Shown here piece after piece: positions 6,421 through 43,690 of a stretch of 64,000 nucleotides of DNA (positions are counted from its first letter, which is position 1; the number at the start of each line of letters is the position of its first letter). The stretch comes from Isoetes taiwanensis (taxonomy: Eukaryota; Streptophyta; Lycopodiopsida; Isoetales; Isoetaceae), in assembly GCA_021234155.1 (NCBI GenBank), contig JAJEKV010000102.1:1606456-1670455 (forward strand), in the 5' to 3' direction. The translations under genes and the position numbers were made by a program. The notes under the pieces are model-generated. The model had not been told where the DNA came from and did no database searches. It saw only the letters and a list, made by a program, of their open reading frames with translations.

Positions 6421-6837
6421 TAAAGTCAAAATGTCCTAGATCTGAAGGTGGTGCATACAGTATGTTGCCATGTGTTAACTCGAAGGAGTGCCGGTGCCCG
6501 TCTAGTGGTGATTCTAGGGTCCGCATGATTCTAGCAGTCTTTGGGTGGCGCAAAGTTTTCCATGGAATCACCACTAAAAGGGCATTTTGTATAATACGTA
6601 AGGTCACATGATATTCTCATGTGCCAAGAAGGTGCATGACTTTGGAGTTAGAAGAATTTTCAACAAAGTAGGACAAACCACCGACAAATTTGTAAAGAAA
6701 ACCCACAATGACTTTTCTACACGGCCACCGTAACGCATTTCTTCAAAAAGTGCCTAACCCTCATTTTGTTTCCCACTTGCAGTTAAGCGCGTATTAGTTT
6801 TTTACACTTCCAGCTCTCCAGACCCATAAAATCTAAC

Positions 6838-22689: not shown

Positions 22690-24006
22690 AAAGAAATGAA
22701 ATGAAATGAAATCATATTATTGTCTATGAGACCATCAAGTCTAAAAGACATATCTAAATAATCAACTTCTTCATCCTAATCGTTATCTATGGTGACAACA
22801 TTAAACTCACTCCCCTCTATTTCACGAATATTCAACAGAAACTTATAATTTTTTACATGATTTTCTCTAACCTTCATTGCTTCAATTAGATAGTTACTAA
22901 TATGCCTTGCTGGTAATCTGTAAAAGTCCCCTAATGTGATATCCTGGGATATGGAAAATCTCTGTCTCAAACTTTGATATGTTGGGAACTACAGTACTAA
23001 ATGCTCTTCATCCTCTATCTCATCCATCCCGCATACTTTCCATGTTTTTCTCTCTCCAGGCACATTCCTCCACCTTCCCACCTCCACTTCCAAATAGTGT
23101 GAACTCAATCGCACTCTACATATCATGTGTCTTTTATCATAGGACCCCTTCCCATTGAGATGTGGAGCCTCTACAAGTTCTGGGTTCATCTTCTGTATAT
23201 AATATTGCATTTTCACTCCTGGGTTTGCCCATAATTTCTTGCGCATATTTCCTGCGCTTATCCAATCATAAAAATCCCCTTTGTCGTCAATTGCATCTTC
23301 CAAGCTCATACCCCATTTTTTGGAACCATTTGATCATATCCGCATACCAACCCTTTATGCTGCTCTACACCATTGCCAATACTAGTACTCTAATTCTTTC
23401 CATTCCTTGAACCTTTTGGCAGATATTTTAGAGTTTGGTACATGGCTTCCCCTTCTATGCCTAGTAATCCTGTATTTGCAAGCATCATTGCATAAGAGTT
23501 CTGCATTTTAACACCTAATTACGTCAACAGGATTTTTTTTTTTTTTTTTTTTTGTATCTTTTCAACTCGCTTCCATATCTCTAGTGAGAGATGGGGCCCC
23601 CATACTTCACATCCATATAGTACTACACTCCTAACTAAGACTTTACATAACATTCTCTTCATTTTCCAATCTAAATCTTCTATGTAAAGCCTAAAGGGCC
23701 TTAATCTCAGCATCTATTCTCTGCTTAAGTCCCTAGTATTTGTATGTATCACATATTTTAATTTCTTTCCATTTATAGTAGAACTTAAACTCTGGATCCC
23801 TTCTACCAAATACTAGCATCTTAGTCTTGTTACTCTCATGTTCATGGCATCACAAAAAGAGGCAAGTGCATCAATACATTTTTGCATATCGGCAACATTT
23901 CTAGCAAACATTATGATATCATCAGCATATATTAAGAGTAGGAATACATACCCAGCTATGGTTGTGCCTTTCCCTCCATAATATTTAAGCCAACCTTCAA
24001 GTTGGT
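22690..24006 (-). mobile_element. LINE (second family), 3' half, split by the LTR block
   Basis: Read on the minus strand, this continues from the piece at 55656-55882. It carries GGKGTTIAGYVFLLLIYADDI (the catalytic YADD box) at about 24000-23920, VVLYGCEVWGP at about 23640, and a C-terminal block CRVRLSSHYLEVEVGRW with EDEEHLVL near 23080-22990. It ends in ATTTC units at about 22693-22712. Frames are interrupted, including at a T tract at 23528-23553. The coding order runs seamlessly from 55656 to 24006 once the inserted LTR element and one TTGGT are ignored. Confidence 0.85.
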
Positions 24007-25614
24007 TGTGACGTTCCAGGGGAATATACGCTATAAATACGTATATTCCTGGACCCGTCACCATACAAGTCTACCTAAGTAGCCTTGTATGCATTGGAAA
24101 GTGGCAAGGGGTGCACATCTAAGTTAATTGTTTAACTTAGATAACCTTAGGATAAGACCCATTTCCACATGGCCTTATCCTATTGGGCAACCGCCACACG
24201 ACCTCATCCTAGTGGTGCCACGTGGCATCCCATGTGGACGCTCACCTATATTAGCTCTAACCCTAACCCTAGACCCTTTTTCCCTGACCTAGCCTCTAAA
24301 CCCTCATCTACGCGCCCGAAACTCCGTTTCGAGCACCGTTCGTCGTAGCCTAGCCTGGAGCAGCAGCCCCTGGAAGGTGTGTATGATCGTAGAGCGAGCC
24401 ACGTCAAGGAGCATGGAGACGCCGGGGATGGGAGGAAGCGCTTCTGGAGGAGGTAGGTTGAGTAGAGTCCATGTTAGTTCATCTGGGAGTTAGCACTCCA
24501 GATGGGTTAGTATTTCGTAGCTAGAATAGAGCCAACCTAGATCCTTTGTTGAACATCTTGAACCCTAACTGATAGTTAGATATGTATGATTAGGTTAAGA
24601 TGTTCATATGATATTGTTCATGATGATTATGTGATGTTGGTTGATCATGTTTGTTCCTCTTGTGTTGGGAAGGGGGGTAGAGACCTAGGGCCATATGTAG
24701 TATGCTCCTAGTATAGATCCCTTAGTTCCTATTATATGCGGCATGTGCATAGGAACCCACCAGGCTATGGAGGCTATGATGTGACTCGGCACTACATAAC
24801 GGGGCTAGAGGCAATATGGAGGGAGGATCCCTGTCGAGCGGGGGCTACGGGGGATCCCATAGTGGGCTAGGCTTATGGCCGGTCACTTCGTGTGGGCGGG
24901 CATGGGTCCGACACCTCCCAGGGCGAAGGTGTTGCCCCGCCTCTCAAGAGTTGCAAGTGTCGGCTTGGCTCTTGTTTTGGGGGGTTCAGTCGGGTACGAA
25001 TCGTGTGTCGTCACGATTCTCTAGCCGCCGTGGAGCCTCTAGACCCCGAAGGGGAGATGCAACCCTTCCTACCTCAACGGACCAGGAGATGCAACTGGAG
25101 TAGTCCCGGATGGGTGATGCCATGGGATTGCGTGTGATCCGGAAGGTTAGAGTCATGCCGAGCCTGATCTAGCCCATCCGCAAAGTATGCCTGAGGGGCG
25201 GATGGAGTGGTCAACCCTAGCCATTGTCTTATGCCAGCCCGCCATTGTTATGACTTCGGTCCGCTCTATCTTGAGGCCTATCCATTCGGTCGACTTCCTA
25301 ATGTGCCGCATCCACGGGTAGGAGCTCTCACGTTTTATGGTATGTGGCTATGTTCTTTGCACCTTTGGATATGTGATGGACTACCCTTCGAGGTAATATT
25401 TGTATTGTTGATGCTAGTTCTGACATGTTTATCGCTTCCGCTGTTATAGGAGCCCATAGGGGAAGGGCGCGCAAGACACCTTCGTGTCCCCTCCCCGCGC
25501 TAAGGTCACCTTAGGTGCGGGGTAGACGAAGGGCCTGTGCGGTTGTTGAGCCGGATGGGGGATTTCCTGCCGAGTGTACGGCCGGGTGCCGTATGTTTAG
25601 CAGGGAGCGTCACA
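24007..25614 (+). repeat. 5' LTR of O (1608 bp)
   Basis: The termini are TGTGACG...CGTCACA, so the LTR has TG/CA ends with a 7-bp inverted repeat. It contains TAACCCTAACCCTAG at 24257-24272, a telomere-like word that is simply part of the LTR and recurs in the 3' copy. Differences from the 3' LTR over the first 700 bp are few: a few substitutions/indels and a 14-bp repeat difference near 49720. The promoter and TSS are not resolved. Confidence 0.93.
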
Positions 25615-25615
25615 A

Positions 25616-25628
25616 TGGTATCAGAGCC
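25616..25628 (+). other. Primer-binding site of O (initiator tRNA-Met)
   Basis: TGGTATCAGAGCC, one base after the 5' LTR, is the usual complement to the 3' end of plant initiator tRNA-Met. It marks the minus-strand DNA start. Confidence 0.9.
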
Positions 25629-26195: not shown

Positions 26196-27307
26196 ATGGC
26201 ACGCACTAAACAAACCTACAGGAAGCCTGGCCCTAGGCGAACACCCTCCATGGCGGCAGCAGCAGCGGGCGGTCATGGCAAGCAGATACCACCCCACCTG
26301 AGGCCCAACCTAGACGAGGGGGGGGCTGGCCTTCATCCAACGACTCCTTCCACGACGCCGAAGAGAGTGCACCTAGCCCCAGCGGCAGCTCGTCATCGGC
26401 GGGCACCCAGAGAACCGGCGAGTCCCGCCACTTTGGGCCCTCGACGGACACCGAGGTCGAGGAGCAGGTTGAAGAACAGGTGGGCGGGCAGCAACAGCAG
26501 CACCAAACTCAGGAGGCAGGCCCTTCAGCACCTAAGAAGAAGGGCAAGGAAAAAGTTGCGGAGTGGCCAGAAGAGAAGGCTGCTAGGAAGAAGAGGGAGC
26601 GCGAGCGGGAGCTCAGGCGACAGGAGAGAAGGACAAAGGGAAGAAACGACCGGCCTCGCGGGACCATCGTTATTGAAGAGCCTCCTGAAGAGGAGGAGGC
26701 CCGGGAAGGGGGAGACGGCGAGGAGGAGGAGGAGCAGCAGGGGCCCGACGCTAGACCACCTTACCCTAAGTGGCCGGAGCCACCAAAGGTGGTCAAGAAG
26801 CAGAAGGTGAGAGAACGAGAATTCACGCTCCGTCAGGATCGTGAATTCATGCGTAAGATGAAGGTATACCAGGAGTACCTCCGTCGCTGGACGAGGTACA
26901 ATGACTGGTATTGCCGTCAAGAGGTGCAGCGGGCCGTGGAGGGCGGCAGGCCGAAGAAAAATCAGCCGAAGCCACCCCCACCTAGACCGGAAAAACCCAA
27001 AAGGGTTCACCACGGGCCGAACAGTGTGTACGCCCGGGTGTTTAGGGAGATCAAGCACTTCCAGATGTGCACAAATCTCCTCATAAGGAAGGCGCCCTTC
27101 GAGCGTCTCCTTCGGGAAGTCATGCAGCAGTTCCGGACCGATTATAGGGTTACCCCTCTAATGACCCGGGCTCTGCAAGAGGCTGCTGAAGCAGAGCTGG
27201 TGCAGCTCTTTGAGGAAGGGAATCTCTGTGCCATCCATGCTAAGAGAGTCACCCTTATGCCAAAGGACATTCACTTAGCACGGAGGATTCGCAGGGAGAG
27301 GCCCTAG
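26196..27307 (+). CDS. Retrotransposon-encoded histone H3-like protein (H3 tail + charged linker + H3 core)
   Basis: The first ORF after the 5' LTR starts [10 protein letters not shown], the N-terminal tail of H3 with Tyr at A7, K4 and K9 kept and S10 replaced by Pro. About 270 residues follow that are Ser/acidic, then Lys/Arg/Glu-rich (probable coiled coil), then [10 protein letters not shown] and a basic WxxYxxW stretch. The last 87 codons (27044-27304) are an H3 histone fold: [51 protein letters not shown] and LARRIR. By eye about two thirds of these positions equal canonical H3, with alpha-1, loop 1, alpha-2, loop 2 and alpha-3 at normal length. It is not CENH3-like, because loop 1 is not extended. 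The tail frame (from 26196) and the body frame (open from about 26282 to 27307) differ by one base, and a run of eight G at 26318-26325 lies at the switch. That is either a consensus error, a true mutation or programmed -1 frameshifting. Nucleosomal or particle-packaging roles are conjecture. Confidence 0.9.
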
Positions 27308-27527
27308 GCCTTAATTTTGTAAATTTTGTTAGAAAGTTAAAATTTTCATGTACTATGTTTTCCTATTAATATAAAAATTACTTTCCTGTAAAATGTTGGA
27401 TGCCTGAAATCTAGGAAATTAAACCCAAGTGTAGTAGAATTCTTTATAACATGCTTAGAAATACCCTAGAAATCATGACTACAACGAAAATTTTGGCAAA
27501 AAAATCATCCAAAAGCAAAAAATCGGG

Positions 27528-27802
27528 CCAACCGGGTGAGACCGCGCCAAACGCGTCTGCGTTCGCGACGCGGAGGCCATCCGCGCGGACTCACCCGGGT
27601 GCGCTGAAATCATGCTTTTAGGTGTCAGTTTTGTTCAAAATAAGTTGCTAGTTAGGTTAGAATTGATCCAATTAGCCATGTTAGCATCTTCAAACTCCCA
27701 AAAATGACCAAAATTGGTTCCAAAATCGGCCAACCGGGTGAGACCGCGCCAAACGCGTCTGCGTTCGCGACGCGGAGGCCATCCGCGCGGACTCACCCGG
27801 GT
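27528..27802 (+). repeat. Two identical 73-bp GC-rich hairpin repeats in O
   Basis: The copies are at 27528-27600 and 27730-27802, 202 bp apart, and identical as I read them. Each starts CCAACCGGGTGAG and ends CTCACCCGGGT (outer stem). Inside is CGCGTC...GACGCG around TGCGTTCGC (inner stem). They lie between the H3-like ORF and ORF B in otherwise AT-rich sequence. Element I has five hairpin repeats in the equivalent zone. Confidence 0.9.
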
Positions 27803-28081: not shown

Positions 28082-29602
28082 ATGGCGCCCAACAACTTTG
28101 AAAGATGGTACAATGCTGCAAACCATATCCATCAGCTCCCTGCTGACCAAGCCTTCTCTGTGTTTGACCACTTGTTTGATCTTCATGCAACTCTGTCTAG
28201 AACACCATACTACACAGATATCATGTGCCAATACGACCAACAGGTCCTACCTTGGGAAGTTAGACTACCCCCTAGGGGAGGGAATTGGGTTTCCCTTGAG
28301 ACACTCACCCAAGCCTTAGGTCGAGAGATGGGAGGATCCAAAGGCAAGAAACAGCTATGGGATAGGACTAGGACCATGCCAGATTACATGACCTGCAGAC
28401 ATAATAGGCATAGGTACCTTTCATCTCAGACAGCCCTTGCCCTCTTCATGCACTATAAGTCAATCAACAAAGTAGGGGAACCTTCCGTTCAGCCCTTAGA
28501 TTTAGCTCCACTTAATACCCGTAGGGCCCAGGAGCAGATTCTCAATATAGAATCCTCCGCATATGAACACCATGGCACGACATCGGGGGCACCAATTCTG
28601 CAGATAGACGAAGACTACGAGCAACTAGGGGAGCAAAACCCAGAGTGGGAGAGCAGGGAGGCAACAAGAATGCAGAGGTACATGTCAAGGCACGACGACG
28701 ACATCAGAAGAGCCACCGAGCCACCGGTCGGCATCACAGCTCTGTCGCCGATAGTCATCGACGGAGAGGAGTACATTCTAGCAAATGACATCCTCAACTT
28801 GTCATCCGCCAGAACGGGGACTTGAATCGGCGAGCTTCTAGGCATGATAGCACATGGGAAAAGCACGGACCTCATCGACTATTCATACCGGAGATTCCAA
28901 GGGGAGCTGGCGGAGAGACATTCTTATCTTTGGGGAGACAATGTCGACATAGCGGCCTATCGGCCAGATATAAAGGGAAATCTATCGCCAGAACCCTGTC
29001 ATTTGAGGAGGAGTTCCAGCAGATACAGAGCACACTGTACAAACCAGGGAGGGGCCCAAGCTCCAGCCGGACAGTTCGAGCCAGGAGCATGAGGGAAGGG
29101 TCCAGTAGCATCAACTTGGACAATGCAACCAGCATGTGGAGAGACCATGAAGACCTTATGGCAGTAGATGCCTACGGCGGAGCGGCTCAAAGGAAGGGCA
29201 CGGGATCGCGAGGCACGGGTAAGGGCACGGCACTACGTTACTATCTTCCAGCCCTCAGCCAAGGGCAAATGGTAGTCTTCCACAAGGAGTTCAGTCCAAG
29301 GGGGGAAGAATCAGTGGCACTTCTCATAGCACTCTCTGCCGGCAGCATTCAAGATATACACCCATGAAGATCACGTCATCCTTTTCAAGAGGTCCGTAGC
29401 GCTCCATTGCCTCGACTTCGCTAGGGGCCACCTCAGGGACGCATCACTTTCAGTAGTAGCGGCAACTGCACCAGAACTCCCGGAACCGGAAATGGCGCGA
29501 GCACTCGAGGGAGGATCGACAAGGAACATCCTGCGCAACCTCGGCAAAGGCCTCCGATTCAGAGATGTGAAGAATTTCTTTAGGCTTTCAGGAGGCCATT
29601 GA
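28082..29602 (+). pseudogene. ORF B of O: conserved protein of unknown function
   Basis: This starts MAPNNFERWYNAA after a short leader and is open to an in-frame TGA at 28823-28825. The coding pattern continues (IGELLGMIAHGK, SFEEEFQQIQS, then RNILRNLGKGL and VKNFFR), with frame changes near 28985 and 29360, to a stop at 29602. Element I has a homologue at 35279-36793 with the same order of blocks: FxRWYxA, ATxxxTPxYxxIM, EEEFxxIQ, STxNILRNL, VKxF. The full length would be about 500 residues. I recognise no domain. It lies between the H3-like ORF and gag/pol in both elements, so it belongs to the family. Coding for a structural protein or a lineage-specific accessory factor is possible. Confidence 0.75.
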
Positions 29603-29797
29603 TCAGTTACAAGATTTCCTTTTAAGCTTTAAATTGTATTGACTAATCTCTTTGATATTATCATGTAATGTACTTCTATATATTAATGACTTATTATCAT
29701 CTTGACTTGTAAGTGAAATTTTCACATGATTACTTTTGTATCTAACAATAAATTAATTGTAAACGGATATAATTGATATGTAAAACAAATAACAAGG
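29603..29797. other. Short AT-rich gap where gag would be expected
   Basis: Between the end of ORF B and the protease there are only about 195 AT-rich bases. In element I the same interval holds a gag ORF with a CCHC knuckle. O therefore lacks recognisable gag. Confidence 0.7.
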
Positions 29798-30888
29798 TAT
29801 TGAAGTCTAAGCCAAGGCCAGTTGCTATGGCAAACGGCTCCATTCGGCACACTAAGGGGAGGAGGATCACGTTCGACATAGACCTTAGTGGAAGTAAGTG
29901 GCCGATGGGAGCAGAAGTCATGGAAATTGGAAGGTATGACCTTATAGTGGGCATTTGAAGCCAGCAAAAGCCATGATTGATTGTGATCGCAACGAAGTCG
30001 CCATGACGGCACCGGACGGCACCAAATTCATAGTAAAAGGTAAGAAGGCAGCTCCTTCTATGCAGTGTATTTCCTTGAAGCACCTAAGGAAAAGTATAGA
30101 AAGAAATAAGGTGGATTACATTTTGAGGTTAGAGGCAATTGAGCCCAATAAGCAAGATGGAAGTGATAAAAGGGGAGTCGAGTTTGCCCAAGCCAGTAGC
30201 AAGGCTCATCTCAGAATTTAAGGATGTATTCCCGGATGAAATCCGCAATTACCACCTTACAAGGGTGTGGAGTGTGAGATCACATTAGCTCCATGCTAAG
30301 CCTACCAAGAAGGCACCTTACGGGATGAGCACCCGAATTGACAGAACTCAAGAAGCAACTCCGGGAATTGCTTGAGCTTGGGTTTATTAGAGCAAGTGTG
30401 TCTCCTTTGAGACACCTATACTCTTTGTGAAGAAGAAAGATGGGAGCTTAAGAATGTGCATAGACTATCGCCCGACTCAACAAGCGCACGATTAAGAACA
30501 AGTATGCATTGCCAAGGGCGATGATTTGATGGATCAGCTCCAAGGAGCAAGGGTATTCTCAAAAATTGACTTAAGGTCGTGGTACCATCGGATAAGAATT
30601 AAGGAAGAGGATATCCATAAGACCGCCTTTAGAACGCGGTATGGTCACTTTGAGTTCACAGTAATGCCCTTTGGATTGTCGAACGCTCCAGCAACTTTTA
30701 TGCGCCTCATGAACGACGTCTTCAGGGATTTTCTAGATGAGTTTGTCATTGTCTTCTTCGACGACATTCTAGTCTATAGCAAGTCCATTGAAGATCATGA
30801 TCAGCATTTGAGGAAAGTCTTGGAGAAGCTGAGACGCCATCGCTTGTATGGCAAGCTCTCCAAATGCCACTTTGCTACCGAAAGAGTG
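29798..30888 (+). pseudogene. Pol of O, 5' part: protease and reverse transcriptase up to the I insertion
   Basis: The region 29798-29955 encodes the end of an aspartic protease region: VAMANGSIRHTKGRR, DIDLSG, MEIGRYDLIVGI. RT follows: [17 protein letters not shown] (about 30421-30470, frameshifted), then an open frame from 30526 with [18 protein letters not shown] (first catalytic Asp), [19 protein letters not shown] and FFDDILVYS (catalytic DD). The frame ends at ATERV, where element I is inserted. The missing part resumes at 46111. Several 1-base breaks upstream of 30526 prevent a continuous polyprotein as written. Confidence 0.85.
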
Positions 30889-32473
30889 TGTGACGTTCCA
30901 ACATAATATACGCCCCAATACGTATATTATACTGCCACGTCACACGTACATGTCACAAGTGACATGTACTTGAGAGTAGGACAACGTTGCACCTAGGAGC
31001 TAAAGGTTGCACCTAGGGGGCAACCTTGGATGTTGGGTATGTAATTAAACATACACAACAAAAGGTTCCTTGTTCATCCATTTCCAAATGGCTCAAAGCC
31101 ATTTGCCCATGTGGATGCCCTAACCTAGATAGGGTCTATATAAGGGCTAAAACCCTAGACCCTAGCTCTCCTTTCACTTTGCCAATTAGGGTTTTCTAGA
31201 GCTTCCTTTCCTCTTTCGCATTTAGGGCTTTCCTGGGCCAATTCGGCCAAGGTAAGGCTCGAAATCGCATTGCCAGGCTCCGAAAAGTCGGATTTGCACA
31301 ACAGGTTCTTGAGTAGCGGTGCCTTCGCAAGATCAGAGCATGGGCGCCTTCGAGGATCGGGGAGCAAGCCAAGGAGCGGTATCTAGTTGTTCTCACAGCA
31401 AACCCGCCTTTAGGCATGGCAATATGCCGGTTTAGTATGTTAGATCATCTCTGGAAGCCTTGTAGATCCCTAGATCTGAGACTCTAACGAATGAACCTAA
31501 CATTGGATGTTAAGTAGATAGATTGATATGATTCTCTATCTCTGTTCTGTGATATTGCATGTATTTCACTCTGTGATCTCCCTTGTTGTGGGAAGGGGGT
31601 AGAGACCTAAAGGTCGTGTAGAAGATGCTCCTAGCATAGCACCTTAGTTCCCACATAATTGCGCCCGTGGCACGAGCCCACCTGGCTGTGGGTGAAGGGG
31701 CAAGGCCGGTTGATAAGGAGGAACTTGTCTCATCGCGGACTGACCCCTCTGGTAGTAAAGCCTATCGGGGGTCTTTGCTGGCTAGGCTTAATGGCTTGTC
31801 ACTGCGTGTGGGCAAGGCATGAGCTCGACACTCGTGGGGTGGTGGATATGACCTTCCAGTGAGTTCAAGTCGAATAAGGGCAGTGGCCCTCTAGCCGCCT
31901 GCGATGAGCATGGATACCTCTGGAGGAGAGGCAGCTCTCTTCCTGCCTCATCGGGGTTGGGGAGATGCAACCCAGCCAATGGTAGCCCCTCAAGATTCAC
32001 CCTACAGACTACGGCCAAGTCCCAACACTTTTTCAGCCTACTGCAAAGTGTGTGCGGGAGGGGCGGATGGAGTGGACTACCCTAAGCCATGTTCTATGCC
32101 AGCCAAATCCATTGCCATGAATTCTGTCTGCAATGAACTCTGGAGGCCTAGCCGTCAGTCATCCCCCTTGAGTCCGAGCCCTGGGTAGGATCTTTCCTTT
32201 GTATTATTGTTATGAAGGTATTGCTAACTCTGTGATGTTGCTATTGTTATGGTGATTGTGTTGTATATTATTAGTTGTGCTCACGTTTGTTAGTTACGCT
32301 TCCAGAATAGGTCGATCCGATGGAAGGCGGATGAATGACACATCCACTCTTCCCTTGCCGGCTCTGCCCCCCATGGGAGTGGAGTCGGTGGATAGCCCCC
32401 GCGGCAGTTTGCCGGGGAATGCTCCTCCTTCAATAATGATCACGGGCATCGATAAGGAGTAGGGGCGTCCACA
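30889..32473 (+). repeat. 5' LTR of I (1585 bp)
   Basis: TG...CA ends. It pairs with 44514-46110. The first 40 bases resemble the O LTR start (TGTGACGTTCC then ATATACGC), consistent with sister families. Differences from the 3' LTR are mostly small indels in GC-rich words (for example near 31665 versus 45290), not substitutions. Confidence 0.9.
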
Positions 32474-32474
32474 G

Positions 32475-32485
32475 TGGTATCGAGC
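32475..32485 (+). other. Primer-binding site of I (tRNA-Met, worn)
   Basis: TGGTATCGAGC immediately after the LTR equals the O site TGGTATCAGAGC minus one base. It is a mutated or mis-called initiator tRNA-Met site. Confidence 0.75.
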
Positions 32486-32682
32486 ATGATCTTGGCATCC
32501 AAGATCGAGCAGCCCATTTTTCCCTTAGGACTAACAGTAGATTCGAGTCTTGGGGTATAGCCACCCAAGCAAGAGCTTCGAACAATTGGGAAAATTTCCC
32601 AATTTTTGGGTAGATTTTAGCTCCATGATAGGTTGCTGATGAAGTGTAGCATCTTTCCCAACCTAAATTGTCAAAAAACAGT

Positions 32683-32970
32683 CGACCCCTCACAGAGTGC
32701 GCCCAGCACCATTCGGTTCATAAACCGATTCCACCCCTGGCGCCTTGTGGTGAGTGGTTGACCTCCGCTTGACATAGTTAGGTGTCCCAATTAATTAAGA
32801 TAATGGTGTAGTTTGGATTATTCCCTTAGTTCTAGATAGGATTGTATGTTATAACACTAAGAAACTCCCTGTAAATTGTAAAATAGCCTCGAAAGCGATC
32901 GACCCCTCCACGAGTGCCCGGACCCTTTAGGTTGGTAATCCAATCCGGCCCAGCGTCTTGTGTGAGTGGT
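32683..32970 (+). repeat. Hairpin repeats 1-2 of I, before the H3-like ORF
   Basis: The copies are at 32683-32757 and 32900-32970. Each begins CGACCCCTC(C)AC and ends GTGAGTGG, whose ends pair imperfectly, and has CGGTT...AACCG or similar in the centre. They lie between the primer site and the H3-like ORF. Three more copies follow that ORF. Confidence 0.85.
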
Positions 32971-33191
32971 GGGTGTTTTGAAGTATGGTGAACCCAAATG
33001 AATGCCTCGTACCTTCGCTAATGCCCTAGTTTGTTTTCCCCATATATGAATTGCGGGTCCCAACCCTAAATTCCACCTCCCTATAAATAGAAAATTAGGG
33101 TTTCCATTTTACCCCCACCTTTCCTCGAGAACAGCTTCGCCTAAGAAGACGATCTTCAGCGCCAAAGCTTCGAAACCCGACAAACAAAAGC

Positions 33192-34366
33192 ATGGCACCT
33201 GACGAAACAGAGACGCCTCGCGAAGGTTATGCCACCCGGTTATGTGAGCCCAGAGCGAGCCGTCCGTGGCAGGCCGACGGGAGGCAAGTGCACATCGATG
33301 AAGAGGCGGCACCGGTTGAACCACCTAACCCTAACCCTGAAGAGCAGGAACAGGTATCGGAGCACCTTGACTGGGAGGCGGACGCGGCGGCGGAGCTGAG
33401 GAGGGAGCTGCTGAGGGAGATCTTCGAGATAATGAAGAACCGAGCGGAACCAAAGAAGAAGAAGAGGGAAAGAGAAGAAGGCGAAATGAGAAATCTAAGG
33501 CGAGCGCCTAAGGAAAAGGAAGAACTAAGAAAGAGGAGGGAGGAGAAGGAACGAAGAGGGAAGAAAGGAGGAAGCGCAAAAGGAGCCGGAGAAGGTGAGA
33601 GGCGAGAAAGGTAAGGACCGGAAGTGCCGGGCGAGAAGCCGAAGAAGAAGAAGACACCGGCCGCGGGAGTGACCATACAGGAGCCGGATCCTGAGAAGCC
33701 CCCATCCTCGTCTGACGCCGAACTTGAGGAGGGAGCGGGAGGACACGAACCAGGAGAGACTTCGGGCCCTTCAAACCCAATACCGGAGGATGAAGACCCT
33801 GTGGCTAATGCACCGCCCTATCCTAAATGGCCGTCGCCGGAGCACCCCAGCGACAGCACCAAGAAACCAAGGCCGCAGAGGGAGTCCTATGCGCTGAAGC
33901 TGACTTGAAGTACCGGAAGGAGCTAAAGGAGTATACCATGTATATGAAAATGCACGAAGAATACTCCAAATACTACGAAAGAACACGTAGTGAAGACCAT
34001 TGAGGAGGTCGGCCAACGAAAGAAGAACACGTTGAAGCCCACCGAACAGCCAACCCTCCTCCGAAGCCGGCGAAGAGGCCGGCGGACTCAAAATTCGCGA
34101 GGGTGGCCCAAGAAATTAAACACTTCCAGCAGAGCTATGGCTTCCTCATTCCCAGATCCCCCTTTGCACGTCTAACGAGGGAGATTTTGCAGGAGTTCGA
34201 CCCATCCAAACGGGTCACGGACGACATGTTTGCTCGCATCTACTTGAGGAGGCGTCGGAGCAAAGACATCGCATACATTACTTGAAGACTCACGTCGCGT
34301 GTGCTCAACACGCTAAAGAGAGTGACTTGTATGCCCAAAGATATTAGACTAGCTTCGGTTTATTAA
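33192..34366 (+). pseudogene. H3-like ORF of I, decayed
   Basis: The start MAPDETETPREG lacks the ARTKQT tail seen in O. The 33192-33614 frame is acidic, then Lys/Arg/Glu-rich. Other frames continue with APPYPKWPSPE at 33810 (O has [10 protein letters not shown]) and a YRKELKEY...YYERT stretch. The histone core lies at 34109-34366: EIKHFQ, PFARLTREILQEF (alpha-1), then in shifted frames HVACAQHAK (alpha-2 end; H3 NLCAIHAK) and MPKDIRLA (before alpha-3). At least four frame breaks prevent expression of one product as written. The gene clearly shares ancestry with the H3-like ORF of O and lies at the same place. Confidence 0.85.
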
Positions 34367-34516
34367 GAAGGAGGGCCCCCGAACTTGTAAATGACCTTTT
34401 CTTTGGTATAAGTCTATAATTTTGATAAATAAATAAGTCCAATCGAGTTTAAATAGGGTGTATTGCCAATTCTACATTTAGAAATAGCAAAGTTCGAACA
34501 AACCAGGCAATTTGAT

Positions 34517-34997
34517 CCCACCCCTCACGAGTGCGCTAACCCATTCGGTTTGCAAACCGATCCCACCCTGGCGCACTGTGTGAGTGGTTGAGCATGGTTT
34601 GGTGCCAAATCTTGCCTAAATGCAGAAAGTAGGTATACTATTCGACCTAGCTCATCCCGTTAGTAGGAATTGACCCCTAATCTGTCCAAATTGGCCTTGC
34701 CGAGTCAAATGGAGCTCCACCCCTCCGCGAGTGCGCCCGGACCCATTTGGTTTGGAATCCCATCCCACCACGGGCGCCTTTGTGTGAGTGGTGAACCCCA
34801 AACTCCACCACAACTTGCCCAAATAAAAGCGAGTAAAGGCTCAATCCTATCTATCTCGATGAGATATCCGGGATTATGTCTTTAGTTCTCTAGTTTAGCA
34901 TCATTAGTGACCTAAGCGGCGTCCCACCCCTCACGAGTGCGCCCCAACCAGTTCGGTTTGCAAACCCGATCCCACCACGGCGCCTTGTGGTGAGTGG
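34517..34997 (+). repeat. Hairpin repeats 3-5 of I, after the H3-like ORF
   Basis: The copies are at 34517-34588, 34717-34792 and 34923-34997, spaced about 200 bp. The consensus runs CCCACCCCTCACGAGTGCG, TTCGGTTTGCAAACCGAT (a self-complementary core), CCCACC.GGCGC, TGTGTGAGTGG. Spacing and position mirror the 202-bp-spaced pair in O, although the sequence differs. Confidence 0.88.
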
Positions 34998-35278
34998 TCT
35001 CGTCGAATTCATCCAAGTTGTCCTTAGGCGAACCAAAATCATTGCTTAGGGACCCTTAGGAGCATTTCCAAGCTCGGTTAGCCTATAAATCATACCTCGA
35101 GACCCCGTGAAAAGTCGAGAATTGTAAACCTAAAATTTTCCCAAAATTAGGGTTTTGCCTATAAAGGGGAACCCAAGTGTCATTTGCACATTCCAACCTC
35201 GCTCTCTGCTCCAAGCCGATTTCCCTGATCCTTAGGGCACTTCTGCATCTATCTGTCATCCCCAGCTCCTCAGTGCTC

Positions 35279-36793
35279 ATGGCCACTTCTTCATTCAAGC
35301 GATGGTACAGCGCCACAGCTCATGTGGCTGAAGTTTCGAATCTGTCTTTTCCGATGTCTTCCGAAGGGAACTTGACATTGAGGCCACCATCAACGCCACT
35401 CCCTTCTACCAGAACATCATGTCTGAGTTCCATGCCAAGATAGGACCCTTTTTGGTAGAACTCCCACCTTGTGTAGGGTATTTTGCACCTAACACTGCCC
35501 TCAAGTCAGCCCTGCAAGATATCCCAAATGTAGATAAGTACTTAGAGAATAAAAAGCAGTCCGCCTTCCCAACTACATGTCCATCTCGTCAATAGGGAGG
35601 AGGTACTTCTCCTATCTGACGAAATACATATAGCCATCTTTCTATCTCTTCGGGTCAAACACGATAGGGGAACCCTCGCAGCAGCCTTTAGAAGTTGAAC
35701 CCATAGCCATGGCGCTTGTGAGGAGGAGGAACGGATGCGACTTCGAAAATACGAGCAAGAAGAAGAGGAGGAGGATGAATACTGAATCGGACCGGAAGAC
35801 CTGATCTAGAACGAGAGAGGCAAAGCGGAAAAGAGATCCAAAACTTCTCAAGAGGGATCATGAAAGCAACAAGAAGAGCCCCACCACTCGGGCAGGGCAT
35901 TACAAGCTTGACGCCAGTGTTCATAGCAGGCGAGGCATATCTAACCCTTCACGACATCAAGAATCTTCCACGCGATTCCGCGTGCAGGCCTTAGGGTGGA
36001 TGAGATTTTACACCTTCTACGACAGCAGGCAGATCTCGACGACTTCCTCGATCGAGAAGCTCAGGACTTCCCTATCAGCATAAGAGAAGCCAGGACCTTC
36101 ACCGGCGAGACATCATCAGATATAGAAGCTTACGCAGGCATCAGACAGATGATGGCCGAAAGGGAATTGCCCTCGGAGGAGGAGTTCATGGCAATTCAGG
36201 AACAAATGGGCATCAAAGGCAAGTCCACATCAGCATTATTACCGAGCTCGCCAACACCCATCCCGGCAAAGATGGAGGCGATCAACCTAAGGAGGCTGGT
36301 GCACCAAGACTTCGAGAGCTAGAGGAGATACCAAGGATGACTTCAAGGGAAGGCACAGGCAACTTCCTCGTCCGCCGAAGAAACAGGGGCATGATAAGGC
36401 GCCGATACTACCCGCCGCTGTCTTTGGATCGAAAGAATAGCGGTTATTCACCGCCAATTTAGCCCAAGAGGTGAAGAAGGGGTCTTTATGCTTATCGCCC
36501 TCTCAGGGTTCGGACACCATGCACGATTACCTCCAAACATCGACCATGTTGTCCTGATCAAGAGAGCGATTGCATTGACCATCTTCGACTTTGCAATCCC
36601 TTATAGGCGGCAGGGCAGATTGGCAGTGACAGCTGCGTATACATCAGATAGGAGAATTCAAGACATGGAGGCAGTACTCCAAGGAGGAACGTCAACAAAT
36701 ATTCTCAGGAACTTAACAGGGTCATTAGGTACGGCCCAAGTGAAGAAATTTTTGGAGGACCACCCTGATTACCTCAAGAAATTTCAAGAGTAA
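35279..36793 (+). pseudogene. ORF B of I: conserved protein of unknown function, frame-broken
   Basis: Starts MATSSFKRWYSAT. The frame then shifts; DIEATINATPFYQNIM at about 35380 matches the O stretch HATLSRTPYYTDIM. Later pieces are 35996-36322 (EEEFMAIQEQM) and 36488-36793, which holds MLIALSG, ILRNLTGSLG and VKKFLEDHPDYLKKF and ends in a clean stop. The C-terminal block is well conserved against O at 29310-29600. Conservation between two element families with the same synteny indicates a real protein. The function is unknown. Confidence 0.75.
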
Positions 36794-36917
36794 AAGTCTA
36801 TTAATTTGCATGTAAAAGCTTATTATATATGAATATAATATATATCTCTTTTGTATATAATTGCTCCCTCAAATTGTATAAACAAGTAAAACAACGTAAC
36901 ACACAAAACAAGAACTA

Positions 36918-37937
36918 ATGATCAGAATGTACTCTAATGTGCATGCAGCTAGAGTACCTAGAAACCTTGATGAACACAGGCAGCGAGAACAACAACGTAC
37001 CCCGCCAAGGCGCTTCCAGCCGAGGAATTTGCGCCCAGAATTCGAAGCGGTAACACCGGAGGAGGAGCTATCCCAAATCAGATCTGACATCCACGACATA
37101 AGGGCATTGCTAGCAGGGGCAGCAGCAATAGGAGGACAGGACCAGAATGTGCCCTTGCCGGAAACGCCAGCTGGCCGAACAGTGCAACGAAGGAAGAGAA
37201 GCAGAGGGAGAAGATCTCCCAGCTTCGGGATCCTCAAGCTCCAGCTCGGATACGCATCTGCATCTCGGAAGAGCGGGAAGAAGAGGCACGAGGTCGCCGG
37301 CGGGGATCCAAACCCGCGATGCGGGACGGATCACGCATCGATTATCGAGAAGAAAGTTGACTCCGCCCTTAGTAATGTGTGGAAAGCCAGAAAGTTAGAG
37401 CAGTTTTCAGGGGAAAACAGATCCGGAATGGAAGCAGAGGCATGGCTGGATGAGATGAGTGAGTATGGCAACGCCTATGGCATGAAAGATAAAGACAAAG
37501 GCAGGGTAGCAACAGCAAACCTCAAAGGGTGCAAATGTAATTTGGTGGAAGGGTATGCCAAAGCACATGGGGAAAGGGGATGCGGTTGCAAGTTCAGAAA
37601 GTTCGCCAAGGCATTCAAACATCATTATGTACCAAGAGAACATAAGTGCAACATGATGCAGCAGTTCTATAGGCTGCAACAGGGCAACAAATCAGTCCAG
37701 AAATACACGGAGGAATTCATGAGACTAAGGCTTTATGTGCCAAAGTTGAGTGAAAAGCATGCGGTGGAAGGCTATATTGAAGGCTTGAACGATGAGATCC
37801 GCAAGCTTGTAAGGGCAATAAACCCAAAGTCTGTGTCAGAGGCAGAAGCAAAGGCCATAAGTTTGCAAGGAACAGGTCCACAAGAGCAGGCATCAAGGCA
37901 GCAATATTTCCAGGATAAGGGGAAGAGCACTGTTGCC
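36918..37937 (+). CDS. gag: Gag of I, N-terminal and capsid part
   Basis: This open frame begins MIRMYSNVHAARVPRN. It has a basic linker and then the Retrotrans_gag-type capsid region: LEQFSGENRSGMEAEAWLDE, KGCKCNLVEGYAKAH, then FAKAFKHHYVP, MMQQFYRLQQGNKSVQKY and YIEGLNDEIRKLV. These are the usual gypsy capsid blocks. Normal coding stops at about 37937, where a foreign block begins; the frame runs on only 20 codons beyond. The Gag C-terminus resumes at 39804. Confidence 0.85.
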
Positions 37938-39803
37938 TTTCACAGAATCCTTGCAAAAACTGTGATGCATAAATCTCTAAATTGTGGGATTTCCTAAAAG
38001 ATACTTGCCAAATTCTGTGTTTAGGGGGCAGAGAGCCAAAGGTGTGGTGAGGGGATGTGAAAAGATGAGAAAAGAGGTGCAAATGTGAGGAAATAAGGTG
38101 ATATATGAATGCAGGTGTATGACTGGGATGTTTTCTGTAACAAAGTGATGAAAATGATTGAAGAAAAAAACTTTGGGATGCAGTCAAACTTCCTTTGAAT
38201 GCAAATGAAATATTTGAGCAAATTACGAGAATAGCTATTTGTTTAGCTAAGTCTAGATAATATCGAGATAACTTGAATTGATTTCAACTCATTTGTTGAT
38301 CAAGATTGGTGGGAAATTCGTTGGCAAAGTTAAGCGAGTGGACGGCACATAAAAAATGGGAAAACCCTAATTTTTTGAAAAAAAAACTTCAGAAATCGAT
38401 TGAAGAAAGGGAAACACCATGGATTGCTCAAGAAAACTTTTCTCATTATCTTAGGAACATAATACATATGTGGGGTAATCCATTTGATCACTCAAATAGA
38501 ATTTGTATCAGAACTTCAAAAATCTTGGCTTTCAAGAACAAGGGCGGGTTTCTAATCAAAAATCTCCTCTCCTCGTGTGGAATACGGCTCGGATCATCTT
38601 TATAGACCTGTGTCAGGGTAGTTAGAGCTCCAATTTGTCTGCATATGGCCACGAACTCTTCTTTCCCAAAAATAGGCAATATTCTGTTCTTGGCATGATC
38701 TCCATTAATTCGGCATCCTCTTCATGATTCGATTGGTTCCAGAGGTCGATTATGATCAGGCGAACTGCTCTGCATCACTCAAAGTGCGCGGGAAGCCGAG
38801 AATCATAGAACCCTAATGGATCTTGGCCGGATTTTCTTCAGTGGATATATCCCACAGGCCTAAATCAAAAAGTCAGCTCAGGTATATATAGCTCGATCCA
38901 CGCAAACTCTTAAATTGACGTGTCTTGCCCACGTGGGATTCGGTACCTCCACCGCCCCACACGCCCGGGTGAGCCACGTGGAGGGGGGTGATTGGCTGAA
39001 AAGGAATCTAGGTCGGGGGGGTGGTAGAATAGGACAATTTTTTTACATTTTCTCAAAGGGCACGATTCCCAAGAATTGGAATTCAAGGGTCTATATAAGG
39101 TCTTTTTTGGAAATTTTTTGTGCCAGGTGGCATATTTTCATTGGGGCAACATGGTGAGGTGGTCAAATTTTGGAAAATGGCACTTTGATTTTTTGGCTAA
39201 AAAAGGTGAATCAATGGTGACTGGACATGATGAAATGATGACTTGGCATAATGAAGGATGATGTGGCAAGGTCAAACATGGCTTTTGCCTAAGTGGATTT
39301 TCGAAATTTCAAATGCCCCTTGATATTTTTGATGAGGTGGCATGATTTTGACCCAAGTGGCAAAGATATAACCAAAGTTGGATGACAAAGCATTTTTGTG
39401 AGCAAGGTGGCCATCCTAGGTGGCATTTTGACTCTTGATGACGTGGCAAGGGTATTTTTTGGAAAGTGTGCCTTTTGACTTTCTATTTTGACTTTCACTT
39501 GACTTTTTGACATCTTTGGCACTTTTGGATGATGACTAGGATGCCACTTGGCAAAGGTATAGATTTTTTGGCATTTTGGGATTTTTAGGCATCTTTAGAA
39601 GCATATTTGGCTAGCGATAGGGGAAATTCAAGGAGAAATGGGAGATAGGCTCAAAAAATTTGGGAAAAATCAAGGATGGCTAATTTTGGCTAAAGGATTT
39701 GGTAGGGGTACTCACCTGGCCTAGATTCTCTTTCAGCCTGATACCTTTCCTTAATAGCTCCTCCAATACTTAGAATTTTCTTCATATCTTCATTTCTTCT
39801 TCA
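37938..39803. mobile_element. 1.87 kb foreign insert in gag of I
   Basis: TGTTGCC flanks the block at 37931-37937 and 39804-39810, a likely target duplication of at least 7 bp. No terminal inverted repeat, RT or transposase is visible. On the minus strand near 39800-39720 an open stretch encoding KKILSIGGAIKERYQ runs into GTGAGT, a good splice donor. An open stretch at 38679-38488 (minus; EEFVAICRQIGALTT) could be a second exon. Neither is recognised. The middle is TGG/GGCA-rich simple sequence. The block could be a non-autonomous element with captured host exons. Confidence 0.55.
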
Positions 39804-40306
39804 TGTTGCCACTTCAAGGGGCAACAAGCACAGGGGGCTATAGCCCAAGGGCGGCAAGCCCAGTAGCTAGCAAGACGCAGTACAATTCAAATTATGGGAA
39901 GCAAGGCAACACAAGTAGTGGCAAGCAGGAAAAGAAACAGGTAAGCTTCAAGGAGCAAGGAGCCAAGTCTAACTACTCCCAAGCGGTGAGGCAATTTCTG
40001 CAGTCCATTCCCAAGGAGAAGAAGCAGGAATGTATAGAGAAGCAGTTGTGTTTCAGATGCTTCCAGCCAGGGCATAGGACCAACAATTGCCCCCTGATTA
40101 TGAATGCGGCATTGGCAGAGCTGGGATGGGAGACACCATCGGACGCAGACGACGACGAAGCACGGGATTACATCCATGGTGAGTGTCACATCTTTGCAGC
40201 TATTGATACAGGGAATGCAGAAAGTCAGTATAAGGTAATCTCAACGACCGGAAAAGCCCAAGAGAAATCCTTTATAGTATTGATAGACTCACGGAAGCGA
40301 TCATAA
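39804..40306 (+). CDS. gag: Gag C-terminus with CCHC zinc knuckle, and start of protease region (I)
   Basis: After a Ser/Gly/Gln-rich linker comes CFRCFQPGHRTNNC, a perfect C-x2-C-x4-H-x4-C nucleocapsid knuckle that binds element RNA. The frame then runs to HIFAAIDTGNAES and FIVLIDS, the latter likely the aspartic protease active-site strand (normally hDTGA/S). The open frame stops at 40306 by a frame break. The upstream capsid part lies before the 1.87 kb insert, in a frame that no longer matches by one base. Confidence 0.85.
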
Positions 40307-41730
40307 TTTTGCATCCCCAGGATGGTAAGCATGTTGAAGTTAAAGCCGTTAAAATCCAAGCCCAGGCCCGGCTGGTGGTGTTAGCCAATGGAGCAATTAG
40401 GCATACAAAGAGGGGAAGAGAATAAACTTCAATGTAGACTTGCGGTGTTAATGTTGCAATCGGGAGCGGAAGTCATGAATATAGGCAAGTATGATCTCAT
40501 TATTGGAATGGAATATCTTGGACCAGCAGGGAGCAATCATCGATTGTGGGAAACGTAAGGTGACCTTAACAACGCCAGAGGGCAAAGTCATCGAAATCAC
40601 AGGTAAAAAGTAACCCCAATCATGCAATGCATGAGTAGTGAAAAATTGCTTAAGTGCATAAGAAAGCGGCCAGTGGCCTATCTCCTTAAGCTTGAGCTCC
40701 AAGATCGGGGAGCGGGAGAGAAATAAAGAGATCAAAGAATCTAGCAAGCTTCCCCGGGCCAATAGCAAAGTTGATCGAGGAATTTCCGCGACTTGTTCCC
40801 CTGATGAGATTAAGCGGCTTCCCCTATAGAGAGGAGTCGAGTGTGAAATAGCATGAACACGGGACGAAGCCTACAAGCAAGGCACCTTATAGGATGTCAA
40901 CCGAGGAGTTGACAGAGTTAAAAAGCGATTTGCAAGAATTGCTAGACCTAGGGTTCATAAGACCTAGTGTCTCCCGTTCGAGCCCCTATTCTCTTTGTGA
41001 AGAAGAAGGATGGGAGCCTTAGGATGTGCATTGATTACCGCCAGTTAAATAAGCACACCATCAAAAATAAGTATGCCTTGCCTAGGTCGAGATGACTTAA
41101 TGGATCGATTCAGGGGAGCAAAGATCTTCTCCAAAATAGATCTCGGATCGATATCACCAGATTAGGATCAAGGAGGAAGACATTCATAAGGCGGCGTTCA
41201 GGGACAAGATATGGGCACTATGAGTTCCACGGTTATGCCCTTTGGATTGTCTAATGCACCAGCAACATTCATGAGATTAATGAACGGCGTCTTCCGGCGA
41301 ATTTCTAAATTCCTTCATCATAGTCTTCTTCGACGATATCTTGGTTTACTGATGAAGTCGTGGAGGAGCACGCCCAACACTTGAGGAAGGTACTTGAAAA
41401 GTTAAGAAGGCATCAACTCTTTGGTTATCGAAGTGCCGCCGCCTGGAAAGAGTGGAGTACTTGGGGCACGTGATCACAGCAGAAGGCATTTCCACGCACC
41501 CTGAAGATAGAAGCCGTGTCGGCTGGCGGCACCAAAGAATACGATGAAGTCGAGGGAGCTTCCTAGGGCTAGCATGCTATTATAGAAGATTTGTGAAGAA
41601 TTTTGCCAAGGTAGCGGCGCCATTAACGATCTCACAAAAGGTGGGAAGATAAAAGATTGGGCAACCCATTGGCAAAACAAGGCCCGAAAGCATTTGAGAC
41701 ATCGGAAGAAGCTTTGACGACGGCGCCCGA
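40307..41730 (+). pseudogene. Protease end and reverse transcriptase of I, heavily frame-broken
   Basis: Recognisable pieces are VLANGAIRHTK and NIGKYDLIIGME (protease side, about 40380-40510), [22 protein letters not shown] (about 40995-41055), [19 protein letters not shown] (about 41235-41285) and VFFDDILVY (about 41325-41350). They jump between frames every 50-150 bases. Compared with O, the breaks are mostly 1-2 base gains or losses in GC-rich words such as CGG and CGA. This may reflect raw-read consensus errors as much as true decay. Confidence 0.8.
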
Positions 41731-42351
41731 TTGGTCTTGCCAGATCCGACCAAAGATAAGCTTGTAGCAACAGATGCTAGCGGGATAGCAACAAAGGTAG
41801 CATTCCTCATGCAGGAGGAAAGAGTAGTGGCCTACGATTCCAAGAAGTTGAACGACGCCGAGCAGCACTACCCAACGCATGATCAGGAGCTCCTGGCTAT
41901 AGTAAGGGCTTTAAGAATTTGGAGGCATTATTTATTAGGAAGGAAATTCCAGTTAGACACAGATCACCAAAGCCTCCAATACATATTTACGCAGCCGCTC
42001 CTTAATTTGAGGCAAAGGAGATGGATGGAATTCTTGGAAGAATATGACTTTGAGATAAGTTATAAGCCAGGGAAGCTCAATGTGGTTGCGGATGCCCTTT
42101 CCAGGAAGCCATTGGCAACCAGAATTCATTGTAACGCCATATCAACACTTGTAAGTGAGTTTGGCAAGAAGATTGAGGAAACATTGCCGACGGACCTCGA
42201 CTTCAAGGAAGTTTGGGCGAGCCTTTCTAAAGAGGCCAGGACCGACAAGGAAAGGGAGATGTTCAGGCACTACAAGGAAGGGAACTTGCTATATTATAAA
42301 AACAAATTGTGGGTACCAAAATCTTACGCAAAGTTAGAAAGCTTATTTTGA
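41731..42351 (+). CDS. RNase H of I
   Basis: An intact 206-residue stretch: KDKLVATDASGIATKVAFLM (first catalytic Asp), YDSKKLNDAEQHYPTHDQEL (catalytic Glu), LDTDHQSLQYIF (third Asp), then [19 protein letters not shown] and VADALSRKPL, the usual end of the gypsy RNase H. It continues into the linker before the integrase. It removes the RNA strand of the RNA-DNA hybrid in reverse transcription. A break of one frame separates it from the integrase at about 42309-42351. Confidence 0.88.
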   Translation: MVLPDPTKDKLVATDASGIATKVAFLMQEERVVAYDSKKLNDAEQHYPTHDQELLAIVRALRIWRHYLLGRKFQLDTDHQSLQYIFTQPLLNLRQRRWMEFLEEYDFEISYKPGKLNVVADALSRKPLATRIHCNAISTLVSEFGKKIEETLPTDLDFKEVWASLSKEARTDKEREMFRHYKEGNLLYYKNKLWVPKSYAKLESLF

Positions 42352-43690
42352 ATGATACACACAATAGTCCCATAGCGGGGCATCAGGGGTTCATGAAGAC
42401 ATATTTCAAGATTAGAAGCGATTATTATTGGCCCGGCATGAAGAAGGAAATAGCAAGATATATTAGAGAGTGCCAGATATGCCAGCAGACAAAGGCGGAA
42501 CAACTCCGGATCCCAGGTGCCTTGGAACCATTGCCCGTGCCAAATGCTAAGTGGGAGGTGATAAGTATGGATTTTATTACAGGACTCCCAAGAACAGCAA
42601 GGGGCAAAGATGCCTTGATGGTGGTAGTAGATAAGTTGTCAAAGATGGCACACTTTGTGCCGCGGCAGACAACAGAATCTGACATGAGACACACCAACCT
42701 AATTGTTAAGGAGATTTTTAGGCTCCATGGCATGCCAAGGGAGATAATCTCGGATAGAGACTCCAAGTTTATGAGTGCCTTTTGGCAGGACCTATTCACC
42801 ACTATCCAGACAAAGCTTTCGATGAGCACGGCATATCATCCCCAAACAGATGGTCAGACGGAGAGGACAAACAGGATCATCGAAGATATGTTAAGAAGCT
42901 ATGTATGGAACAAGCAATCCAAGTGGGATGATTTCATCTACCTAGTAGAGTTTGCCTACAATGACACCAAGCGAGGAGTCATCGCAGATGAGTCCTTTTA
43001 TGATTAATTACGGGTATCAGTGTCTTACCCCAGATACTTGGCACAACCCTGTGTCCAAGGTGGAAGTCTCCCAGCAGATGCTTTCAGAAATGCAAGACTT
43101 GGTGGAGGAAGTGAGAGGATATCTCCTTGCAGCAAGAAGCAGGCAGAAAAGCATCGCCGACAAGCATAGGACGGTAAGAGAATTTGAAGTGGGAGACAAA
43201 GTGTGGTTGAAGATCAAAGTCAAGCAGGCCAAGCTCCGCATCGGCAATTGCAAGAAGCTTGCTCCAAGATGGGCTGGACCCTTCCGGAATAGAGAAGAGA
43301 GTAGGTAACCAATCCTACAAGTTGGACTTGCCAGCACATCTTAAGATACATAAGGTTTTCCACGTAAGTTTGCTAAAGAGGCACACCCCAAACCCCGAGG
43401 AAATATTGGAGACAAATGAGTTTTTAGAAATGACGGACGAGCATATTGAAATCGTTCCGGAAGTCCTTCTTAATAGATCTTATAAGAAGACAAGAAGGTC
43501 AAAATTCCTCCAATACCTTGTGAAGTGGAAGCACTTACCAGTGGAAGACGCTACGTGGGTACTTGAGTCAGATCTTAAGAAACAGTACCCCGAGTTTATG
43601 GAGCAATGCAAGGGTCGGCTCGTCACCGAAGTAGTCGACATCAGCAACCAAGAAATCGGCTCAGGCATGTCGATTTGGGTTTGGATTTAA
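42309..43690 (+). CDS. Integrase with C-terminal chromodomain of I
   Basis: The HHCC zinc finger is present (H in HNSPIAGHQGF, C in CQICQQTKAEQ). Catalytic residues are Asp in VISMDFITG, Asp in IISDRDSKFMSAFW and Glu in DGQTERTNRII. After about 43000 the frame changes twice (TKRGVIADES where O reads AKQESSQMSPF; and at 43290). It then goes on with WAGPF, HKVFHVSLLKRH and the chromodomain KFLQYLVKWKHLPVEDATWV (43500-43565), which has the aromatic pair Y...W expected for methyl-lysine reading. Product function: insertion of element DNA, with the chromodomain steering the complex to modified histone tails, as known for chromoviruses. Confidence 0.9.

Follow-up and report, generated by a model that had tools for sequence, protein, structure and literature searches.

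A histone H3-fold gene at the head of putative Ty3/gypsy chromoviruses in Isoetes taiwanensis

LTR retrotransposons in the genome of Isoetes taiwanensis carry a gene whose long protein product ends in a histone H3 fold. The fold occupies the C-terminus in two families, with 64% identity to H3 in the family represented in the window (the whole 64,000-nucleotide stretch of contig JAJEKV010000102.1 analyzed here) and 84–89% identity in a second family. In the window's family, the gene lies between the primer site and an ORF2-gag-pol block, its product begins with MARTKQT[A/Y]RK in most copies examined, and its tail, linker, and core are under purifying selection. We lean towards a model, read from these sequences, in which a Ty3/gypsy chromovirus lineage captured a host H3 gene and keeps it as its first gene, the encoded H3 variant presumably pairing with host H4. 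The original prediction, that a captured H3 had acquired a long linker and turned into an element gene, is supported by the fixed position of the gene, its intactness in a fuller relative (L069), its low dN/dS, and, less decisively, the tree of its cores.

Organization of the element and its copies

Element 1 of the window, shown in Table 1, is an LTR retrotransposon with an LTR pair, a target-site duplication, and a primer site, TGGTATCAGAGCC, which we take to be of the initiator tRNA-Met type. The H3 gene follows the 5' LTR and this site, as had been predicted. The LTRs differ by 3 substitutions in 702 aligned bases and by 10 in 484. An insert of about 5.3 kb (49876–55175) lies in the 3' LTR, and about 385 LTR bases are gone there. 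Element 1 is also split within its reverse transcriptase by element 2, a member of a related family. The H3-like ORF of element 2, which was not mentioned in the original prediction, is 50% identical over 48 aa to the core region of the element-1 family (E 4e-12). The inner element 2 has LTRs that are 91.8% identical (K2P 0.088), while those of the outer element carry only 13 substitutions in 1186 bases; this age paradox requires that the outer LTRs underwent gene conversion or had some other history.

Table 1. Coordinates of elements 1 and 2 and their genes in the window
Feature	Position	Strand	Evidence or remark
Target-site duplication TTGGT, left	24002–24006	.	Right copy 55656–55660; sequence
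5' LTR, element 1 (TGTGACG...GTCACA)	24007–25614	+	blastn self-match to 49160–49875 and ~55176–55655
Primer binding site TGGTATCAGAGCC	25616–25628	+	Sequence; 12-base core in 55/60 copies
H3 tail frame, MARTKQT start	26196–26810	+	Terminates ahead of the core in the window copy
Core frame (linker and H3 core)	26237–27307 (open to 27304)	+	Frame differs from that of the tail
Histone H3 fold, alpha-N to C-terminus	26987–27304	+	Pfam PF00125 E 1e-28; PDB H3 E 2.8e-31
Paired stem-loops, identical, 75 nt	27526–27600, 27728–27802	+	Separate H3 ORF from ORF2
ORF2, several frames in window	28082–29599	+	507 codons open in relative L069
Protease to reverse transcriptase, element 1, split by element 2	29788–30888	+	RVT_1 E 2.5e-30; 85% DNA identity to L069
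Nested element 2, ~15 kb	30889–46114	+	LTRs 30889–32477 and 44514–46114
Decayed H3-like ORF, element 2, multiple frames	33192–34400	+	
ORF2, element 2	35300–36790		C-terminal domain 44% identical to L069 ORF2
gag, element 2	36918–37997	+	45% identity to L069 gag-pol frame over 336 aa
Remainder of element 1 pol: RT end, RNase H, integrase, chromodomain remnant	46115–48260	+	Chromodomain remnant ~48100–48255
3' LTR, element 1, split by insert ~49876–55175	49160–55655	+	

The original prediction placed an H3 tail and an H3 core in one ORF. The MARTKQT start is indeed found at 26196, and the single ORF holds for other copies of the family; in the window copy, tail and core occupy two frames, so that one protein containing both is impossible from this copy as assembled. 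Either mutation or an assembly error could account for the break, the assembly having been built from Illumina and Nanopore reads with optical maps (PMC8566536).

When the core ORF (275 residues) was searched against the genome, it gave 19384 first-look candidates and at least 140 scored matches, the window included, 115 of these 140 being stop-free over the matched stretch. Sixty others were taken, with preference for stop-free ones, and 59 were assessed, as no core motif was detected in one. Tail, linker, and core form a single frame of 360–381 aa in 42 of the 59, a fraction that is biased as a rate of intactness, as it comes from the best 140 matches and favors stop-free copies. The H3 gene is thus retained elsewhere, which contradicts a one-off insertion into the window copy, the outcome that the original prediction had named as damaging. 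Allowing one mismatch, the primer-site motif is present about 500–600 nt 5' of the start codon in 55 of the 60 copies, and in 1 of 1200 shuffles; this shows that the H3 gene belongs to the element. Contamination was rejected, as host H3 genes and elements share the assembly and the window holds a plant glycosyltransferase gene (6787–8382) whose 15 best matches include proteins of liverwort, moss, Diphasiastrum, and Selaginella.

The beginning of the protein is strongly conserved. With frame ignored, 51 of the 60 copies have an exact MARTKQT, and K4, R8, and K9 are each present in 57. At residue 7, 37 copies have A and 20 have Y, whereas residue 10 is Y in 21, P in 17, F in 12, T in 5, A in 3, R in 1, D in 1, and S in none. 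Thirty-three DNA versions of the first ten codons, counted over the 42 intact ORFs, encode just 7 peptide versions. The long charged linker that had been noticed between tail and core averages 245 residues, 37% of them E, R, or K. Of the canonical tail, residues 1–36 are thus not retained as such: 1–9 remain in most copies and 10–36 are swapped for these ~245 residues. Removal of the linker by splicing was rejected, since its dN/dS of 0.12 marks it as coding.

Gag-pol sequence 3' of the H3 gene was observed in the window and in two fuller copies, L069 and L071. The order in L069 is H3 ORF (368 aa), ORF2 (507 aa), gag, a CCHC knuckle (seen by eye and as a weak Pfam match), protease, reverse transcriptase (RT), RNase H, integrase, SH3_Tf2-1, and chromodomain, so that Pfam finds in it the Ty3/gypsy order of gag, protease, RT, RNase H, and then integrase. 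Its RT lies in an 811-aa frame followed by a second frame, its pol being broken into frames too, and its 3' LTR is located in L070. L071 has the same layout with more broken frames. LTR identities of the two fuller copies are 95.3% and 92.4%. The C1084 copy (L071) is flanked by the target-site duplication AGAGA; none was seen for the C1039 copy, whose 3' LTR end is altered. The chromodomain at the integrase C-terminus (PF00385) scores E 1.7e-11 in L071 and 7.2e-8 in L069, and to judge from these domains both copies are Ty3/gypsy chromoviruses. The chromodomain, QYLVKWKHLPVEDATW (KWKHLP), is by eye devoid of an aromatic residue at the Y48 position. Group II chromodomains are described as having no aromatic residue there (PMC3350952, PMC12786077), and the element chromodomain looks, by eye, to be of this type.

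Two further features lie between the H3 gene and gag. The stem-loops that follow the H3 ORF fold in the window at −48.4 kcal/mol (z −5.2) and recur in L069:2252–2326 and L071:2251–2331 (z −3.0 and −4.4); altered stem pairs in L069 still pair. They could serve ORF2 translation or RNA packaging. ORF2, the second extra ORF (L069:2626–4149), has a dN/dS of 0.10 in one pair and no relative in Pfam or PDB, and its N-terminal half (247 aa in the window) had no match in a search of 5.8 billion proteins. The AlphaFold model of its C-terminal piece, with a pLDDT of 42.3, is too poor to indicate a fold.

The histone core and the selection acting on it

The H3 core at the end of the predicted ORF was confirmed by profile and structure searches. 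Pfam PF00125 (Histone) matches residues 170–271 of the window frame translated from 26480 with 100.5 bits (cut-off 26.4, E 1e-28), far over background, and PDB H3 chains match the core with 112 bits (E 2.8e-31). The best 60 of the 176 PDB matches are H3.1, H3.2, H3.3, and similar chains, with no CENP-A or CENH3 name among those 60. By sequence, the protein falls in the H3 class, with a histone fold that has alpha-N and H3-type alpha-2 and alpha-3. The AlphaFold model of the window H3 ORF has a pLDDT of 43.5, too low to be informative. Searched against proteins, the core ORF yielded 8000 scored candidates and at least 120 matches. Five were inspected, including the top two, from Nymphaea and Ambrosia, and all five are repeated H3 units fused without a linker; the remaining listed matches form a plateau at about 212 bits with 32–77% cover. 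No named protein relative with the linker was found among the matches inspected, in a search from which records of this genome or near ones may be absent. There was also no match in phage, plasmid, and viral contig collections, nor in PADLOC or NCBIfam.

The original estimate that about two thirds of core positions agree with canonical H3 proved close, the 42 intact cores having a mean identity of 64.0% (range 60.2–67.4). R49, K64, R72, R83, C110, H113, K115, R116, V117, K122, D123, and L126 are unchanged in all 42 cores, while R63 is kept in 41 and R69 in 39. We take R49, R63, K64, R69, R72, R83, and R116 to be DNA-contact residues and C110, H113, D123, and L126 to be H3-H3' residues. Conversely, K56 is replaced by M or Q in 41 of the 42, F84 by V or I, and positions 87–90 and further alpha-2 residues are altered in the window's family. 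Positions 87–90 presumably determine chaperone specificity, and because these and the other alpha-2 residues are changed, host chaperones may refuse the element H3.

Pairwise Nei-Gojobori comparison of the 42 intact ORFs, at a dS of about 1.1, gives dN/dS values of 0.12 for the linker, 0.08 for the core, and 0.05 for the tail, the last of which is biased, as the ORFs were picked for having a tail, so that the codon versions and residue counts given above are fairer evidence. Between L069 and L071, a single pair, dN/dS is 0.10 for H3, 0.10 for ORF2, 0.08 for gag-pol, and 0.13 for RNase H-integrase. These similar values indicate that the H3 gene is constrained about as strongly as the genes with which the element replicates. 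The dS of the H3 ORF in this pair (L069:710–1813 and L071:728–1819) is 0.458, twice the 0.17–0.22 of the other genes; the gap is smaller between L069 and the window (0.394 for H3 versus 0.291 and 0.276). The raised synonymous divergence of H3 suggests that the 5' region was swapped between subfamilies.

A search of the genome with canonical H3 revealed the second family. From 9022 first-look candidates it returned 15 host genes at 96–98% identity and at least 135 further scored matches at 71–86%; about 50 of these 135, by eye, lie within open frames of 420–567 aa, and the short ones may include host H3 pseudogenes. Sixteen copies (L087–L102), picked for long frames, encode proteins of 404–451 aa from the likely start Met, in which an N-domain of about 320 residues is joined to an H3 core. 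The primer-site motif is found 5' of the gene in 13 of the 16. Over 98–99 residues, the cores are 83.7–88.9% identical to host H3, and the three that were scanned score 141–144 bits in Pfam. Eleven of the 16 proteins start with MANTK or MAITK, and ARTKQTARK is absent. Neither Pfam nor PDB contains a match to the N-domain, and homology between it and the linker of the window's family was not detectable. Among 12 close copies, dN/dS is 0.12 for the N-domain, 0.23 for the 60-residue stretch preceding the core, and 0.04 for the core itself; the corresponding values for all 16 copies are 0.22, 0.29, and 0.06.

A tree of 36 cores (11 of the 42 from the window's family, 16 from the second, 3 from host genes, and 6 other H3s) places both families apart from host, plant, and animal H3 with support of 84/81, which is under the program's trust mark. 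The tree thus appears to separate element cores from host and other H3, and is not decisive. With H4 as a control query, 69 first-look candidates led to 43 matches, comprising 16 full-length genes with fragments and decayed copies, and no amplified family was found in the genome. In this comparison, which covered H3 and H4, the amplification is of H3 and not of H4.

Possible roles of the element histone

The original prediction proposed that the element H3 might coat the cDNA, mark element chromatin, or compete with host H3. The residues that are kept suggest how the element protein might work. Because the DNA-contact and H3-H3' residues are conserved, it is expected to fold with host H4, and it would then enter nucleosomes or tetramers on element DNA or at the target site. 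There, the long N-terminal part would take the place of the normal tail as an effector, with K4 and K9 retained, residues 14–36 lost, and K56 being M or Q, and in the window's family this effector would also present a true H3 N-terminus to its surroundings. The gain would probably be weaker silencing of the element, or else a handle for the chromodomain of the element's own integrase. The histone core is the part common to the two families, whose N-terminal parts differ, so that the fold points to a common function, and a shared fold with DNA and H3-H3' contacts favors a role that needs host H4 and DNA. Several points speak against a variant pairing with host H4. The changes at positions 87–90 and elsewhere in alpha-2 may keep host chaperones from accepting it, and ARTKQTARK is missing from the second family. 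The inactivated H3 copies of fungal hAT elements show that capture alone does not imply use. Furthermore, the element chromodomain looks to be of group II, which has no clear tie to H3K9 methylation, and residue 7 is Y in a third of the copies of the window's family (20/60). A stronger form of the H4-pairing variant, in which the clade makes its own nucleosomal H3, lays it on element or target DNA, and could read it with its own chromodomain as a self-written mark, is a tentative proposal that we consider possible but doubtful.

The conserved N-terminus could instead be the functional part of a soluble decoy. Here, the ARTKQTARK end, freed by Met removal as in H3, would bind the host readers and writers of H3K4 and H3K9, such as PHD fingers, methyltransferases, and LSD1-like enzymes, and so divert the silencing machinery, while the fold would merely keep the protein nuclear. 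A tail peptide that stays constant while its codons turn over, and a linker that is long and charged, are what such a protein might have. However, it is the core and not the tail that both families share, and the dN/dS of the core is the lowest in the second family and low in the first. This tail is absent from the second family, which indicates that it is not essential to the role of the fold, and even in the window's family S is never found at residue 10 (0/60) and Y stands at residue 7 in 20 of 60 copies. We judge the decoy unlikely.

A slightly more improbable explanation is that the H3-like protein acts in packaging and does nothing to host chromatin: by itself or together with host H4, it would condense the cDNA of the element inside the particle or the pre-integration complex. 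The retained DNA-contact arginines and the presence of gag in the same element fit this idea, but simple condensation needs neither the exact H3-H3' residues nor an H3 tail, and no amplified family bearing H4 was found in the genome. Decoy and packaging both rank under the nucleosomal variant, less favored but alive. Passive amplification of a hitch-hiking H3 pseudogene, or a host H3-like family that merely neighbors unrelated repeats, is very improbable: the gene of the window copy is broken and amplification of H3 by a transposon has precedent (PMC6710886), but position is constant in 55 of 60 copies, copies are bounded by target-site duplications, and dN/dS is low at high dS. The two families may descend from one capture or from several: they are joined against host H3 by the 84/81 support only, and their N-terminal parts are not detectably homologous.

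Relation to known systems and significance

Cellular H3 variants such as CENH3 likewise combine an H3 fold with a tail that is divergent or longer than usual. Unlike these, the Isoetes H3 lies in LTR elements, with at least 140 scored matches. Viral singlet histones, including the bracovirus CvBV-H4 and the H3s of some DNA viruses, are similarly captured genes that conserve the fold, have an extended N-terminal tail, and are thought to join host nucleosomes, but their carriers are DNA viruses (PMC9145170, in its available part); words starting with "retro" are absent from the text of that review. The closest precedent in transposons is the capture of H3 by hAT DNA transposons of fungi (PMC6710886): the copies are inactivated in Pseudocercospora fijiensis and five relatives, whereas 23 of the 26 in Pyrenophora tritici-repentis appear coding. 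There too, a host H3 coding sequence was caught and multiplied to tens or hundreds of copies. The fungal case differs in that the carrier is a DNA transposon and the cargo a 136-aa H3 copy, inactivated by RIP in 6 of 7 genomes, and the available part of that paper does not describe a long N-terminal fusion, a gag-pol context, or selection at the codon level on the element copies.

Plant chromoviruses (Tekay, Galadriel, Reina, and Tcn1, with SM-Diluvium and SM-Cranky of Selaginella) share with the Isoetes elements gag, protease, RT, RNase H, an integrase with H2C2, SH3_Tf2-1, and chromodomain, and a tRNA-Met primer site (PMC3350952). The Isoetes elements add two ORFs before gag, the first of which is the H3 fold, and the available text of that study mentions none. 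Capture of a host gene that could blunt host control is also seen in Ty3/gypsy elements of Phalaenopsis, which keep an ORF for an AlkB-type m6A demethylase, although the captured gene is a different one (PMC9289625). The same paper screened 121 angiosperm genomes and counts 15 domains in all, naming PMD, G-patch, AIR1, DUF1409, YgdH, L26/KOW, B3, ArgoL2, and 2-ODD; its main-text section on the screen, in the part available, does not name a histone domain. The word "histone" is absent from a review devoted to the extra ORFs of LTR elements in plants (PMC7264820) and from both Isoetes genome papers (one being PMC8566536). Among the titles and abstract openings listed in searches of the open-access literature, there was no report of a retroelement-encoded histone. 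Capture of H3 by a transposon is thus already known, and what is new is its retention by a retroelement as a gene that is fused and under selection.

If these elements do make their own nucleosomal histone, they would be the first retroelements known with a histone, in well over 100 scored copies and at least two families within one genome. Transposon silencing works through histone H3 marks, and an element with a conserved H3 of its own would offer a direct test of whether a transposon can alter the substrate of silencing itself. It would also bear on target choice by chromodomain integrases. Finally, these proteins are variants of H3 supplied by nature, with 60 to 89% identity to it and selected outside the host histone genes, and they bear on which residues of H3 are indispensable.
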